From positions 31,693-59,962 of the forward strand of contig JAHBMJ010003854.1 of assembly GCA_018398765.1 (NCBI GenBank): a stretch of 28,270 nt of DNA. Direction: 5' to 3'. Position numbers and translations under genes: made by a program. This document shows positions 9,165 through 22,521 of this stretch, piece after piece; position 1 is the stretch's first letter, and the number at the start of each line of letters is the position of its first letter. The stretch is from Chromera velia (taxonomy: Eukaryota; Sar; Chromeraceae). The notes under the pieces are model-generated. The model saw only the letters and a list, made by a program, of their open reading frames with translations. It was not told the DNA's origin and did no database searches.

Positions 9165-9366
9165 CCTTTTTCACATCCGGATGCATAGAGATGCATAGAG
9201 CAGTTTTCTTTGGCTGCACTGCCTGCATGCACAATGCAGCCATTGATACTAGAATTAAGAAGGAAATCATTATGTTCGGATAATGTTCCTAGCTATATGT
9301 TCGGTCGCTATAGTTCAATCAATGTCAGGCCCCAGCTCTTTGTATACCTAGGTATATATATTACTA
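9165..9366. other. 3-prime flank of SRR1-like gene
   Basis: Composition shifts from GC/pyrimidine-rich to AT-rich within about 100 bases of the SRR1-like stop codon. It holds the perfect 14-bp palindrome TATACCTAGGTATA (9343-9356) just left of the inverted-repeat element. No coding sequence seen. Confidence 0.6.
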
Positions 9367-9902
9367 CCCTAGGCGACAAAATTATTGAATAAAATTTTGG
9401 AGTTTGGCGAAACTTCATTTTTGGGGACGGTATTGGATTAGTGGTTAGTGGTTGACTGTTAGTGATTAGTGGTGCCCTAGAGCACTGTCACCGTTTTGTC
9501 TTTGATTGATTTTGATTGATTGATTGATATATTCCACCCTAGGGCCTTCCCGCTATGTCTATGTCTTATTAAGCTTTTCCGTTTGAGAGTTTGGGGGCTA
9601 GTGTACTTATCACTATGATTCTAGAGTTATATTGATTGATTGATTGATTGGGTCATCTTTGCCTATATAATCACTATCGAAACTCAGGTGGGTCATTTGG
9701 TACCCCTAGGGTTGTTCACGATATGCAAAAAACACATTTTTTAAAAGTCACTAAGAAATAGGTATAGAATCTTATCAATAGACCAATAAGAAAAAACATC
9801 TTTAGATACAGTTTCACTAAAAGTATTTCTTTTACTTTTCAACCAGTTTTCTGGATTGATTTCTTTGACATGAAGTTTATTCAATAATTTTGTCGTCTAG
9901 GG
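9367..9902. mobile_element. MITE-like element 1 with 27-bp terminal inverted repeats
   Basis: The left end (9367-9393) starts CCCTAGGCGACAAAATTATT. The right end (9876-9902) is its reverse complement with one mismatch in 27 bases. The element is 536 bp, AT-rich and has no substantial open frame, as expected of a non-autonomous DNA transposon. It shares nearly its whole length with element 2 (10879-11273) except for about 132 extra bases at 9439-9570 with TGATTGATTGAT microsatellites. A clear target-site duplication is not seen (TA on the left, TG on the right). CCCTAG termini recall piggyBac ends, but the TTAA target duplication is absent, so the superfamily is unassigned. Confidence 0.78.
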
Positions 9903-10753
9903 TGTGAGGGCAAAAATTGATATTTCTCATGTTTTTACTTTTCGTTTTTCTTTCAATGTCAATTCAAATAGAAAGAAGAACAGTTATAAAGGTACAAATA
10001 GTGGATGTGATACGTCTTGCATTGAACTGTGCCTGCTGCTAAAACAATGCTCTGGTTTGTCTACCTTTTAGACGTAATACAAGGGCTACGGTGCCTTGCA
10101 AGGTATATTGGAACAACAAACTGTATTGACAAGGATGAAGATTAAGAAGCCAGAGAAGGGAGGGGGCGACAGCACACAAAGAAGCGCTATAGTATCACTT
10201 ATTATTCAAATGAAGAGCAATGCTGGAGAGTGAAAGCATTGAGAACTTTTCGAAGGAAGGAAGCTACACTTGTGCATGAGTTGAAGATGACAGTCGAAGC
10301 AAAAAACCAGTTTCCAAACTATAAAATTTTGAGGGTTTGCTTTGTTTTTGAAAAGCTATGGGGCAACCTGTTATAAGAGTTTGATGTGTACGCAAAGATA
10401 ACAGACTGGAATTAGATCAGTTTAGATTAGGCAGCGGGAAAGGGCTACATTAAAGTTACTGATCACCTTCTGTGACTTCGGAGGATAAGAAATGATGGAG
10501 AGAGATAATGAAGATGGAATGTGCAAATCCGGAGAAGTACATGGTGATTGAGAGAGAAAAAGACTTTTTGGCACGGTTGCAGCTTGCTGTATAAAGGGTG
10601 TCTACCAGATCGATTCGTGGCTTGTGCGGTGTGACAAAGAAAAAGTGGTACTCGGTGTTCGACTGTAACTTCGACAGAAAATATAATTAGGTGAGGTTTG
10701 ATTAAAATTATTTGTATGACCTGTGTTAGAGATACATGCAAGGGTCCCACTCA

Positions 10754-10788
<35 letters not shown>

Positions 10789-10878
10789 CATCATACAATA
10801 AATAATTTTTCAAAATTTTAGAAGACTAAAATACTTTGTAGTTTTGTTTTTTTATGTAATAATAAGCATCGTTGCACA
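9903..10878. other. AT-rich non-coding spacer between the two elements
   Basis: Almost 1 kb of AT-rich sequence containing a (TA)n run and no convincing open frame. One minus-strand frame of about 95 codons (10463-10750) has no recognisable features. It could be intergenic DNA or the remains of an older, larger element. Confidence 0.55.
10755..10786. repeat. (TA)n microsatellite
   Basis: About 16 uninterrupted TA units in the AT-rich island. Confidence 0.95.
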
Positions 10879-11273
10879 CCCCAGGCGACAAAATTATTGA
10901 ATAAAATTTTAGAGTTTGGTGAAATTTCATTTTTGGGGACGGTATTGGATCAAGCTTTCCCGTTTGAGAGTTTGGGGGCTAGTGTACTTACTATTATGAT
11001 TCTAGGGTTATATTGAGTCATCTTTGCCTACTAGTATATAATTACTATCGAAACTCAGGTGGGTCATGTGGTACCTCTAGGGTCGTTCACGATATGCAAA
11101 AAACACATTTTTTAAAAGTCACTAAGAAATAGGTATAGATTCTTATCAATAGACCAATAAGAAAAAACATCTTTAGATACAGTTTCACTAAAAGTATTTC
11201 TTTTACTTTTCAGCCAGTTTTCTGGATTGATTTCTTTGACATGAAGTTTATTCAATAATTTTATTGTCTGGGG
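10879..11273. mobile_element. MITE-like element 2, related to element 1
   Basis: The left end (10879-10905) starts CCCCAGGCGACAAAATTATT. The right end (11247-11273) is its imperfect reverse complement. At 395 bp it lies in the same orientation as element 1 and is closely similar along its whole length (for example, the shared block with GATATGCAAAAAACAC through to CTGGATTGATTTC), differing by scattered substitutions and by lacking the 132-bp segment. CA occurs on both sides and could be a 2-bp target duplication, but this is too short to be conclusive. Confidence 0.78.
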
Positions 11274-11520
11274 CAGTATATGTACTATTAATTAAAAGCT
11301 ATTATAGTAGTAGCCTAGTATACCGAAGTTCAACTTGAGGTTCCCGAAAGGGTTATTCACGTCGGGCCATCGTCGGCTTTCCGACAGGTAAACTAACTGG
11401 AAAATTGATCAAAATTTGTCTTTAATTCATCGATAAACCTCATATATATATAACTATTTTTTATATATACCTTTATACAGATTTATATTTATAGCTTATT
11501 ATAGCTATAGTATATTGATT
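11274..11520. other. AT-rich flank upstream of small candidate gene
   Basis: TATA-rich sequence with a small inverted repeat (GTCGG CTTT CCGAC near 11383). It could contain a promoter for the candidate gene at 11521, but no specific element can be assigned. Confidence 0.4.
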
Positions 11521-12880: not shown

Positions 12881-15287
12881 AAAGAAAGAAAGAAAGAAAA
12901 GAAAGAAAGAAGGAAAGAATGAGGGAAGGAAAGAATGAGGGAAGAACAGAGAGACCTACACACAGCTTCTTCTCTGCTCTGTTGCAGACAAACGGACAGC
13001 AGGGAGAGGAAAAGATAGCACACAAAATACAGATTCACGGAAAACGAAAAACGTGCAACAACTTTCAAAACCTTCATCGCCAGAAGAGAGGCACACCCGA
13101 AGTGCTCGCGCACACAGGTACAGAAGAAGAAGGCAGTCTTGCAAGCCCAGACAATTCTCCCCTCTTCCCTCCACGACTGACCACAACATCGTTCCCCTGA
13201 TGTTCCTGTCCAAACTGAACGAAACCCTCCACTTCCCCCAGCCCTGGTGCAGGCACAAGGGGGGGCGGCACGTCAAAACCAACCCCCATGCTCTCTTCTC
13301 CGTTCTCCTCTTTCTTTGTGTGGGGGGAACGGGAAGAAGAAGAAGAGGACTGCCTGGACCGACCCCGCACTCTTCCATTTGAAGAGGAAGACGAGGAGAA
13401 ATCACACAACACCCGGCCGCTGCCAGAGGAACCGCTCGAAGCCGCTGTGGGCATCGCAGAGCGCGTCACACTCCCCCCGTCTCCCTCCCCACCAACCCAG
13501 ACAGGCTGCTCTGTGTCTTCGTCAACGTCCATCCCCTCATCTCCCATCATCTCATCGGGACCACAGCTGCCCCCATCCTCGCTCCGCCCCTCCTCTCCAT
13601 CTCCTCCCATATCAGGCTGCTCCATCTCCCTCTCTTTCTTGCGACGGAAGGCGATGGCAGCACGCCGTGCGCCGTTGAACCCCCCCGCCTCGGCACATGA
13701 GAACGAACGTTTGTTCTGTTTACCATTCTCCATCCACACGGCAACCCACGCCTTCTCAGTGCGCTTGAAGTGAACACCCCTCACTCCCGCGCCCTGTCTG
13801 GGCCCTGTTTTGTTTTCTGTCCCCCCTTCGGAGACGGGGGGCGTGTCGTCCTCCTCTGTTGCTTCATCGTCCTCTTCTTCCCCTGCCCCCCCACGCATCA
13901 CAGTCCCATCATTCGGACCTCCCACTGACTGTCCACCCCCCCCACCCGCCATAGTTGCTCTCAACTCAATAGCCAACTGACGAGCGACTTCCATTCCGTG
14001 AGTCCGGACGGCAAATCGTTTCTTGACCTGCCGCCCAGCCTCACACCAATTAGCGACCCAACCCCCCATGTCAAGGGGATCAGATGCTTTCGGTCTGTTG
14101 AACCAAACCCCTGTCACCCCGCTCTCGGGCTTCACGCTTTTTGCAATCAATCGCTCGGAGAGCTGGGAGGCGAGGCTGCTGCGGTATGGAGCCGGACCCC
14201 CCTGAGCCCCCCCCACCCCAACATTCAGCAGGCGGAGCCTCACGGCGGTCCAAAAGGACCCCTCCATTCCCTCTTTCGCGATCGGAATGCGGCGACGCTC
14301 CTGTCGCCCGTCCGCACACCAATTCGCAACCCAGGCCCCGGTTGTACCGGGCCGGGGGCCATGGTGGAAGTACACACCTGTGAGGCCGCTCTCTGGTCGG
14401 ACCCCCCCGGTGGTGGGGTGCCAGTTGGCGTCCATCTCCTCTAGGGGGATTGGGGGAACCCCCTGTGCCCTCATCTCTTCGTGATCAATGACAAAACTCG
14501 CAGGGGCAGATGAATCCTCAACAGTCTCTACTTCGCCGTCTCCGGGAGGAACAGAGAACTGTCTCGAGGACGACGCTTCGAAGCCCTCCTCTTCCATTTC
14601 TCCTCCCTGGACTTCCTCCCTTCTTCTCTTCTTCTGACTACCTGTTAATTCCTCCCCCCCCTCCCCCCTCTCATCGACAAGCATAGAAGAGGAGGATCTA
14701 GGTTTCGGTCCTCTCTTGTTCCCCCCCTCTTTGGCAGCAGGGGGGGGTTTCTTCTTTGTCTCTGCCATGCTGCTCTTCAGGTCATCAACAAGCCGGAGAT
14801 ACTCCTCCGTCCTCTGACCCCTCAGAAAGCGGGACGCAATGGCAGCCATCCGCGCTCCCTCCTCACCAAATCTGGAAGGGAAGGAGAGAGGGAGGGAGGG
14901 AGGGAAGAGAAGTGAAAAGTACTTGCAGGAGGTACAGACACGAGAGCAAGCAACATGCTGACATCGAGGCGAGAAGACGCAAAAAAGGGGGACAAAAAAA
15001 ACAGACTTCAACCGAGGAGTCATCCACAGAGAAGGAAGGAAACTTGTGCGAGCCACAACGATGATCAGAGGAGACAAAACGAATCCGACAGACACCAAAA
15101 TAAATTAAGGACACCCGTTCACCAACTGACCTCGAGACAGGAAATTTGCGTTTTGTCTTTCGAGTCCCCTCCACCCAATTTGCAACCCACTCTGCATGTT
15201 CCGGCCCCGAGCCGGGAGACAGCCAGACACCTCGCACCTGCACATCCACACACACAGTTGCACATAGAGACAAACAGTTACACACAG

Positions 15288-19327: not shown

Positions 19328-21926
19328 ATGGTAAAAACAGCTGATCCCCAGTGCGTTCCTAGGCCCGTTAGCGTGCCTCGTCGTGTGAGTGCGGAAGAGA
19401 TGGACAAGATCAGGAAACAGTACGAAGAATCTGTGGTGCAGCAATACGACACTGATGTGAAGAGAAAGTTCTACTCTGCTGTGATGGGCGATGGGTCAGT
19501 CACTTCCAGAGAGGTTTTCTTGAACGCCGCTCTTTCTCTTTCTTTCCAGTATGGTTATCTTCTTGATTTCTTGCTCTCCCAGTTTGCTTGGGTAGCTTCA
19601 AATGACAGGCTTCCTGAGCTCTTTTTCAGAAGAGAGACTTGTAGCTTTTCTGCTTTTTCACTCCGGTCTGTCTCTGCACGAAATTCCGTCGGTTGGTTTT
19701 TCCCCGCGCTGTACAACTGCTTACGCCTTCCACATGTCTTCATTTGAATCCCTTTGCCTGTGTGCAGCACGGACAATATCCACTTCGGAAAGTGGGAAGG
19801 CGTAGACATGGACAAGGAGGGTGCGTACGGTGAGGCCTCTGCTCGCATGACTGATTGGATGTGGCGTCGTGCCATGCAGATCCATCAGCAGAAGCAGGAC
19901 GGCAAGATCGAGTACGTTGACCTCGGATCGGGCACTGGCGCTGCTGCGCGTCTGATCTGTAGACCCGATCCAAAAGTGTCGTGTACATGTCTCAATTTGT
20001 GTGAGAACCAGAACGAGGAGAACACCAACGCCAACAAAAAGGAGGGAATTGCCTCCCAGGTGGACGTCTGCAAGGGCAGCTACATGGAGCTCCCCGAGGA
20101 GTGGACTGCGAAGTTCGACGGATGCTTCTCGCAGGACGCATTCGTCCACGCCTTCTCCAAGCACATCGCCTTCTCTGAAGCCCTCCGTGTCACCAAGGGG
20201 GGCGGTTGGTTGGTTTTCTCTGACCTCATGAAGGGTGACGCTCCCGGGGTTTCGGAGGACGAGCTCCAGTCGTTCGGCCAAACCAACATGGTTGCAGACT
20301 GGCTGACACCTGCTGAGGTGTGCAGAACGCTCACCGAGGCAGGGTGGCAGGAGGTGTCGTTCGAGGACCTCACCCTCGACATCAAGCGGTCCTTCCAGCT
20401 GATGCTGAGAAAAGTCAACCGTCTCCTCCAAGACCCCAAAGCATGCAGCGGCATCGACCTCGAGCTCCTCGAGACCTACAAGAACAACCTCACCAAGAGG
20501 GTCGGGCAGGTGGACAGAGGGGTGTTCAAGTGGGGCTGTGTTTCGGCACGGAAGCCCTACGTGGTCTCCTTCCTCTCCCACCCCCCCGTGAACCCCCAAC
20601 CCGTTCCCCTGTGCGACTTCCGTGTCGGACCCCCCACCGCCGAGACGGACGTTGTCGCCGTGACCATCAAGGAGCCCATGGACAAGGCCCGCATCCAGGC
20701 TCTTCCCCCCTCCGTCCGCCTGATCGTCTCCCTGTCCTCCGGCCTTGACCACATCGATCAGACTGCCGCTGCAGAGAGAGACATCCAGGTGGTCAACGCC
20801 GGCAAGGACGCGATTGTGAAAGCGTCAGCCGACTACGCGTTGTCGCTCATCGTGTTCTCCCTCAGGGGCGGGTTCGCACACACAGGGACTCAGATCCCTC
20901 GAGAGGGGTGGAGCCTCGGGTGGCACGCCGAGGGCGTGTCCATGGAGGCTGCCTCGATTGGTGTGGTGGGGTTGGGTCGAATTGCTCGGTCACTCATTGA
21001 GCGTTTGCGTTCGATCGAGGACTGGAGAAGCTGTCGCATTCTCTACTGTGTCCCCCCACAGAAGAGAGACCCCATCGCAGAGAAGGAATTGGACATCGAG
21101 TGGATGCCTCTCGAAGAGATGCTCCCTCAAGTCGATATCCTTGTGCCTCTGTGCTCTCTCACGGCAAGCTCCGCGAGAATGATTGGGTTCGATCAGTTGA
21201 GGAGAATGAGGAGAAGTGCGGTATTGCTGAACATGTCCAGGGGTCGTGTGGTCTGCACAGACGCCCTCGTCAAGGCCCTCAAGGAGGGCGTCATCTCCCA
21301 CGCCGTCCTCGACTGCACCGACCCAGAGCCACTCCCCGAAGGGCATTGGCTCCTCTCCCCCTGTGCAAAGTCCAAGGCCACCATCCTCCCCCACTTTGCC
21401 ACGAACACCCTCTATGTGAGGAAGCAAATCGTGCAAGACGTGGGGGGCCAGACTCTCCTGGCTCTCGAAACGACCTCAAACATGAGGGCGGCCAATGACG
21501 AGAGGAAGAAGAGGGAAGACCTCGCGACTGCCCACAACATCACCAGAAAGTTCGGCATGGACGAACTGGTGTGGAACCACATGAGCGCCAGGCTCGAGGA
21601 GGGGGGGTTCCTCATCACCCCTGGTGGTCGCCTCTTCGATGAGATCGCCCCTGAAGATCTTCACAAGGCTTCTTCCGACAACGTCACCGCCGACATCATC
21701 CACGCGGCCGTGTACGAAGCGAGACCCGACGTTCAGGCCATTGTCCATCTTCACACGCCTGCAACAGTAGCGGTGAGTGGGGGGTTGAGGTTTGTTCTGT
21801 GTTGTTCTTGCAAGCGCTCTGCGAGGCCATGTTGCTTCTTTCCTGCTTGTGTGGCTGGTGCAGAACACTCCCTTCTTCCCCCCACCTTTCTCTCTCCCTC
21901 TCTTCCCCAACGTGTGTGTCGGTGTC

Positions 21927-21970
<44 letters not shown>

Positions 21971-22521
21971 AACTTGCGTGAGTGAGTGAGTGAGTGTGGG
22001 TGGGGGGAAACGTTTGTGTGCGTGCTTCGGTTTGTTGTCTTCAGTTGTTTTGCTGTCGTTCACCCATCTTACTGTTACCTCATCCCTTTTTTTATTTGCA
22101 GGTGAGCTGTCTCGAGGATGGCTTCGTGCCCCTTGCCCAGGAGTCTGCGTACTTCTACAACAAAGTCGCCGTGCACGAGTGGGAGGGCATCAGCGACGAT
22201 GTTGACGAGAAGCCCCGACTGATGAAGGCTGTGCAAGGCGGCAAGTCGAACGTCTTGCTGATGCGCAACCACGGGTTCTGTACGATGGCCAAGAGCGTTG
22301 CCGAGGCATGGGTGCTTGCCTACTACTTCGACAAGAGCTGTAGAACCCAGCTGGAGGTCATGAAGGCGAGTGGGGGCAAGCTCCGCCCCCCTCCCGCTGC
22401 AGTGATGGAGCACGCCTCCAAGCAGGCCTACCTCCCTGAGTTCGCCCCCGGAGTGTGCGAGTGGGAGGCCCTCAAACGTCTGGTCGCTCGTGGCAACGAG
22501 GCAAAGACGACAGACGAGTGA
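19328..22521 (+). CDS. methyltransferase / D-2-hydroxyacid dehydrogenase / class II aldolase fusion
   Basis: Exons 19328-19494, 19768-21772 and 22102-22521 join in frame to 863 residues. The start ATG has context AAAATGG. Residues about 25-315 are a SAM-dependent methyltransferase with motif I VDLGSGTG (106-113), FSQDAFVH and a GGGWLVFSD strand; the RKFYSAVMGDG / TDNIHFGKW start resembles sarcosine/dimethylglycine-type N-methyltransferases. Residues about 320-625 are a D-isomer-specific 2-hydroxyacid dehydrogenase with SSGLDHID, the nucleotide-binding motif GVVGLGRIA (454-462), and the Arg547 (SRGR), Glu576 (DPEP), His598 (LPHF) triad. Residues about 636-863 are a class II aldolase/adducin domain with FLITPGGRLFDEI, metal-ligand-like HLH (716-718) and RNHG (His781), but no Glu at the usual catalytic site. 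The second intron falls inside the aldolase domain. Probably a cytosolic multifunctional enzyme; no signal peptide is seen. The substrate is unknown. Confidence 0.88.
21928..21968 (+). repeat. (GT)n microsatellite in fusion-gene intron 2
   Basis: About 20 GT units in the 329-nt intron (21773-22101), followed by GTGAGTGAGTGAGTGAG repeats. Confidence 0.92.

Follow-up and report, generated by a model that had tools for sequence, protein, structure and literature searches.

In a 28,270-nucleotide window of the Chromera velia genome (the whole stretch of DNA analysed here, which lies in contig C3456; all positions are counted from the first letter of the window unless a contig is named), a gene on the forward strand (19328-22521) encodes a methyltransferase, a D-2-hydroxyacid dehydrogenase and a domain of the class II aldolase/adducin fold in one polypeptide. 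The spliced product of 863 amino acids is read from three exons. Exon 1 (19328-19494) provides the start codon, residues 1 to 55 and two bases of codon 56, all within the N-terminal methyltransferase region, and is followed by intron 1 (19495-19767; GTCAGT...GTGCAG). Exon 2 (19768-21772) carries the methyltransferase core, the entire dehydrogenase and the start of the aldolase/adducin domain up to residue 724, while intron 2 (21773-22101; GTGAGT...TTGCAG) contains a GT microsatellite, and exon 3 (22102-22521) supplies the remainder of the third domain and the TGA stop codon at 22519-22521. The Pfam profiles recovered in the product are, in order, Methyltransf_11 (PF08241; 39.6 bits, cut-off 21.2), 2-Hacid_dh_C (PF02826; 111.1 bits, cut-off 25.1), 2-Hacid_dh (PF00389; 39.4 bits, cut-off 24.6) and Aldolase_II (PF00596; 125.3 bits, cut-off 22.2). 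A preliminary description of this DNA had proposed a fusion of three enzymes in this order, and the profile search that it suggested bears this out, since all domains score above their cut-offs. It had also placed the methyltransferase, the complete dehydrogenase and the beginning of the aldolase in one open frame of 2005 nt; exon 2 is indeed open throughout that length, without a premature stop, and holds the whole dehydrogenase and the beginning of the aldolase domain, but the first 55 residues of the methyltransferase part lie in exon 1. Both splice junctions are supported, because an uninterrupted paralogue, described below, aligns across each of them without a gap. Judged from the sequence, it is near certain that the three-domain fusion is real.

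When the whole protein was compared with the genome (177.8 Mb in 4,040 contigs; the family searches reported below were run exon by exon), nine matches were obtained, of which three correspond to the gene itself, two to one close relative on contig C2353, two to remote dehydrogenases (27-28% identity) and two to remote methyltransferases. The close relative (C2353:38767-40341, reverse strand) is a single uninterrupted open frame of 575 amino acids, 545 from the first methionine, which scores 42.4 bits with PF08241. Its methyltransferase (81% identity to that of the window gene) runs straight into an aldolase domain (82% identity), and the dehydrogenase is absent at the junction: where the window gene reads ...SARKPY, the dehydrogenase and then NDERKKREDL..., the paralogue reads ...SARKPYNTDEGKKRADL.... 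Comparison of the two genes by the Nei-Gojobori method gave, for nonsynonymous (dN) and synonymous (dS) divergence, a dN of 0.137 and a dS of 2.8 (near saturation) over 299 methyltransferase codons, and a dN of 0.146 and a dS of 1.17 over 228 codons of the aldolase domain. Both domains are under purifying selection, and this low dN relative to dS therefore argues that the fusion is not a chance frame and that the two domains have been retained by selection as a pair; chance frame and annotation merge alike were rejected on the strength of the paralogue and of these values. The earlier suggestion that the fused domains perform consecutive steps on one metabolite is thus supported, and gains from a paralogue in which methyltransferase and aldolase domain are contiguous. 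The dehydrogenase may have been acquired by one gene or dropped by the other, as two copies fit either direction. The paralogue is intronless, although the domains that it shares with the window gene are split there by two introns; it may descend from an ancient retrocopy, or the window gene may have acquired its introns later.

The methyltransferase domain (residues 21-320; 19388-20560, split by intron 1) contains the S-adenosylmethionine (SAM)-binding motif DLGSGTG with D107 (19919-19921). Its best curated profile is that of sarcosine/dimethylglycine N-methyltransferase (SDMT; NF041675), with 94.1 bits of the 550 set as the equivalog cut-off, and its best solved structure is 2o57, annotated as a putative SDMT. 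On these scores the domain is SDMT-like and not an SDMT equivalog, and glycine-betaine synthesis through SDMT was rejected with the score so far under the cut-off. A search of the genome for SDMT at 550 bits found none and is uninformative, as a split gene searched exon by exon cannot reach that score, and none of 14 control genomes reached it either.

Downstream, the dehydrogenase domain (residues 321-631; 20561-21493) carries the dinucleotide motif GLGRIA (GxGxxA, with Ala for the third Gly; 20969), together with R547 (21239), E576 (21326) and H598 (21392), which by alignment to 6bii occupy what we take to be the positions of the catalytic Arg/Glu/His triad. Triad and nucleotide motif had already been described as kept, and we find the same. 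With the glyoxylate reductase model PRK13243 the domain scores 131.3 bits, under the cut-off of 455.

The third domain (residues 632-863; 21494-22518, split by intron 2) was ranked against solved chains in the PDB with a two-sequence profile, and separately by a single-sequence search with the window sequence. By profile, the nearest chains are 3ocr (109 bits), a class II aldolase/adducin domain protein for which no function is given, two adducins (104 and 73 bits) and the decarboxylase NovR (65 bits), followed by 8iqa and 8il8 (59 bits each, both labelled aldolase and identical over the compared stretch), 4xxf (52 bits), TqaM (52 bits), 2z7b (50 bits) and others, with the Escherichia coli FucA chains at 27-28 bits. 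According to the part of PMC11841055 available, 8IL8 is the pyruvic oxime dioxygenase (POD) of Alcaligenes faecalis (AfPOD), which binds Fe(II) through three histidines on this fold, and 2z7b is HMPDdc, a decarboxylase. In the single-sequence search the order differs, POD (61 bits) standing above NovR (58 bits). The three metal histidines are kept (H716 at 21746, H718 at 21752 and H781 at 22270) and align with those of POD. In the alignment column that FucA fills with its catalytic Glu73, the domain has A697 (21689), and AfPOD (A100) and NovR likewise have Ala. The assignment of this column follows from the pairing of FucA Phe76 with AfPOD Phe103 in the same paper, where Glu73 is described as not conserved in POD (PMC11841055, in part), because the Ala three residues before Phe103 is the one aligned to Ala697. 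W751 and E760 align with W155 and E164 of AfPOD, gapless in between; in the E760 column NovR has Asp, and 3ocr and adducin 1 have Glu, so this feature is not specific to the NovR/POD group. Overall, the set of residues typical of NovR and POD is present, namely three histidines, no Glu73, and an equivalent of POD Glu164. By the standard of FucA, the fold and the three metal histidines are there and the catalytic glutamate is lost. The label "aldolase" given to the domain at the outset is consequently probably misleading, with Ala697 in the Glu73 column and NovR and POD leading the solved chains after 3ocr and the two adducins; a sugar-phosphate aldolase was rejected for the loss of Glu73. A role as MtnB in methionine salvage was rejected as well, the MtnB model TIGR03328 giving 27.2 bits under a cut-off of 137, with MtnB-like exons lying on a separate contig (C569).

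Class II aldolase-like domains were also met elsewhere. On another contig (C3301:52073-53543) two of them lie close together, the first nearest to the FucA/OtnC profiles and the second without HxH in the frame read. In an Arctic SAR11 genomic island, a class II aldolase gene occurs with genes for carnitine dehydrogenase, gamma-butyrobetaine dioxygenase and choline dehydrogenase (PMC12421898, in part), so that the fold is also found beside the metabolism of other onium compounds.

The three domain classes match three consecutive steps of the transamination route to dimethylsulfoniopropionate (DMSP), and for this reason we read the protein as a candidate enzyme of that pathway. The route leads from methionine through 4-methylthio-2-oxobutyrate (MTOB), 4-methylthio-2-hydroxybutyrate (MTHB) and 4-dimethylsulfonio-2-hydroxybutyrate (DMSHB) to DMSP, by means of an aminotransferase, an NADPH-linked reductase, a methyltransferase and an oxidative decarboxylase (PMC5395565, in part), the last of which is thought to depend on O2 and is described as uncharacterised (PMC5557254, in part). 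In the scheme that we propose for this gene, taken to be a nuclear one, (i) the dehydrogenase domain would reduce MTOB to MTHB, (ii) the SDMT-like domain would methylate MTHB on sulfur with SAM to give DMSHB, the committed step, and (iii) the class II aldolase/adducin-fold domain, with its three metal histidines, would carry out an O2-dependent oxidative decarboxylation of DMSHB to DMSP by Fe(II) chemistry as in NovR/CloR. The paralogue would unite steps (ii) and (iii) in a single protein, like DsyGD of Gynuella, with the reductase separate. We infer the substrates, the metal, the use of O2, the reaction order and the product. The algal reductase and methyltransferase are reportedly D-stereospecific (Summers 1998), although we found no text stating it. 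CloR and NovR hold Fe through three histidines and, with O2, convert an alpha-hydroxy acid to an acid shortened by one carbon, CO2 being released (PMC13111500, in part), and by analogy this overall change is the same as that from DMSHB to DMSP. That the protein is a trifunctional enzyme for the end of this pathway (MTOB reductase, MTHB S-methyltransferase and O2-dependent DMSHB decarboxylase) seems to us evenly poised between right and wrong. We advance more tentatively, and with belief falling a little short of even, the fuller proposal that one algal polypeptide would lead from MTOB to DMSP, that its third domain would be the DMSHB decarboxylase long missing in eukaryotes, dependent on O2 and using Fe(II) in the manner of NovR and POD, and that other algae may employ this domain as well, whether fused to TpMMT-like proteins or next to them.

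The host fits an algal setting, as 58 matches to the light-harvesting complex family (PF00504) were counted in its genome, and very probably it is a eukaryote that photosynthesises; the assembly gave no match for psbA, which suggests that the plastid genome lies outside it. A search for literature on Chromera and DMSP returned, in the portions of text accessible, nothing on the question. Within open-access literature (which leaves aside most subscription papers and all preprints, and was available in part), no link between DMSP and a class II aldolase was found. The co-mentions there were a methionine salvage paper with DMSP in its references only, a mention of DMSP as a marine source of dimethyl sulfide (DMS), and the SAR11 island, with DMSP in another section. 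DsyGD and DSYE are mentioned in a June 2026 review (PMC13360808); no eukaryotic decarboxylase is named in the part available.

Several observations weigh against the DMSP proposal. The best relatives of the third domain are the adducins and 3ocr; the adducins keep HxH and NHG, and adducin 1 has an acidic residue in the E760 column. Moreover, 4xxf, named as a fuculose-1-phosphate aldolase, scores little below POD. The dehydrogenase resembles glyoxylate/hydroxypyruvate reductases, no feature of its sequence points to MTOB, and the reaction order is not given by the domain order. Membership of the methyltransferase in the DsyG/DSYE/TpMMT group is putative. Its best-scoring relatives in bacteria are remote: one scan of genome contigs yielded three loci with remote methyltransferases (25-28% identity), and in a sample of Pseudomonadota methyltransferase matches occurred in 27 of 398 genomes, the top-scoring at 29% identity and 80 bits, with shorter, weaker pieces at up to 32%. 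For the third domain, relatives in bacteria share 36-41% identity, and the three neighbourhoods read contain ABC transporters or flavin-type monooxygenases next to them, with no DMSP genes. Finally, neither activity was seen with two DsyG-like proteins, one of which, from Porphyra umbilicalis, is also a fusion with a decarboxylase-family domain (PMC11306096).

Searches of other collections gave, for the third domain, 437 plasmid records, the best at 41% identity, and for the methyltransferase one weak plasmid record and none among the phages searched; on viral contigs, methyltransferase and aldolase gave pattern matches only, none of them confirmed. A bacterial operon with all three domains was not found by tblastn on 21 loci (three places being present twice), where methyltransferase matches occurred in 16, aldolase matches in three others and none in two, never two domains together; this is a weak negative, since in 14 of the 21 loci the flank did not exceed about 1.5 kb. 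Two of the bacterial methyltransferase matches (L033 and L036) are surrounded by open frames of 831 and 596 amino acids, which were examined by the three-domain tblastn only.

The strongest rival to the DMSP proposal is a different hydroxy acid as substrate: the three domains would act in sequence on another 2-oxo/2-hydroxy acid without sulfur, on the way, for example, to an N- or O-methylated betaine-like solute or to a specialised metabolite. We regard this as possible but doubtful. It draws on the fact that both the nearest curated methyltransferase profile and the nearest solved structure are those of an N-methyltransferase (the structure as a putative SDMT), on the nearness of the dehydrogenase to glyoxylate reductases, and on the fact that none of these sequences discloses the substrate; it has against it the SDMT score far below the cut-off. 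Glycine-betaine synthesis, moreover, needs neither a 2-hydroxyacid dehydrogenase nor an aldolase-fold enzyme, and we know of no other pathway in which reduction of a 2-oxoacid, methylation by an SDMT-like enzyme and oxidative decarboxylation follow one another. DMSP might also be made with the labour divided otherwise, the third domain being an inactive, adducin-like platform for tetramerisation, or the dehydrogenase oxidising DMSHB to a 2-oxo acid that is then decarboxylated. The second and third places of the adducins by profile, with HxH and NHG kept, and the position of the dehydrogenase between the other domains and not first, speak for such a division; it is nevertheless unlikely, given that the paralogue, which has no dehydrogenase, keeps its third domain under strong purifying selection, and that NovR and CloR act directly on the hydroxy acid (PMC13111500, in part).

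A classical class II aldolase joined to methyl-group metabolism, or MtnB of methionine salvage, appears very improbable for the third domain. Membership in PF00596 and the 52 bits of 4xxf would suit the former, and MtnB both shares the fold of class II aldolases and lies on a route to MTOB; the Ala in the Glu73 column, the low score with the MtnB model and the MtnB-like exons found elsewhere all speak against them. Least credible of all is that neighbouring genes were read as one through an artefact of the gene model or assembly. The genome is repetitive, and an N with a duplicated stretch does occur elsewhere in the window, but a single open exon holds the dehydrogenase together with the flanking portions of the domains on either side, there is no N within the gene, the GC content at third codon positions is alike across the three domains (0.73, 0.77 and 0.77), and the outer two domains are fused at a second locus.

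Elsewhere in the window, an open frame of 676 amino acids on the reverse strand (13077-15104) contains two AP2-domain stretches (76.7 bits) and probably encodes an AP2-type DNA-binding protein. An identical stretch of 552 bases, containing a 36-base tandem repeat, is present at 1147-1698 and 2248-2799, the second copy being offset from the first by 1,101 bases; the preceding segments (791-1146 and 1892-2247) match at 86%, and a single N lies between the copies at 1859, so that the region looks like a stretch duplicated at an assembly gap. An AT-rich island at about 9300-11300 (37-38% GC) belongs to a dispersed repeat family, without an assigned protein family, that has at least 116 genomic matches (a lower bound, as 40 among 1,133 candidates were scored), of which head-to-tail copies of about 1 kb occur on contigs C1563 and C2701.

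DMSP is produced in petagram amounts per year and is a source of the climate-active gas DMS, and as of 2024 the enzyme of the decarboxylase step in eukaryotes was not known (PMC11306096). The gene described here is a concrete, clonable candidate for it, with partners in the same chain that match the preceding steps, and a methyltransferase joined to PF00596 is a marker to be sought in other algae. If the proposal is true, the oxygenases that have a class II aldolase fold would gain an algal member.

Among these oxygenases, NovR/CloR and POD share with the third domain the class II aldolase-type profile, the three metal histidines and, for POD and NovR, the Ala in the Glu73 column. Those enzymes depend on O2, and NovR/CloR oxidatively decarboxylate an alpha-hydroxy acid; for the Chromera domain, metal and O2 use are proposed by analogy. 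It differs from NovR and POD in standing at only 59-65 bits by profile, in aligning His660 with AfPOD Gln53, and in its Glu where NovR has Asp. With SDMT (NF041675; 2o57), the methyltransferase domain has its best profile and structure match in common, at 94 of the required 550 bits.

Within DMSP synthesis, the closest parallel is DsyGD, found in Gynuella sunshinyii and in some Oscillatoriales. This fusion of a PF08241 methyltransferase with a decarboxylase was, as of 2024, the one enzyme known to decarboxylate DMSHB, and adjoining it lies a gene predicted to encode an MTOB reductase, an activity that could not be demonstrated (PMC11306096). In both systems an N-terminal PF08241 domain is fused to a further domain, and the paralogue has exactly two domains. 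In Gynuella, however, the reductase gene is adjacent and the C-terminal domain is PF04115 (ureidoglycolate-lyase family), whereas in this eukaryote a reductase-family domain lies inside the chain and the C-terminal domain is PF00596. No PF04115 domain was found in the protein or in the exon-wise genome search (one of the 14 control genomes, E. coli, matched), and two algal DsyD-like (PF04115) proteins were inactive when tested (PMC11306096); the decarboxylase proposed here would belong to a family unrelated to that of DsyGD. The Porphyra protein (OSX77567) is likewise algal, with a DsyG-like methyltransferase and a decarboxylase-family domain, but its partner is pfam02261 (aspartate decarboxylase family) and it was inactive in the published assays (PMC11306096). 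DSYE and TpMMT, the algal MTHB S-methyltransferases, share with the window gene the S-methyltransferase step proposed for it in an alga, and differ in being single-domain proteins. Larger multi-domain TpMMT-like proteins were noted in two diatoms and set aside as of unknown function (PMC10989797; their domains are not stated in the part available). These diatom proteins may be relatives and could share the architecture described here.

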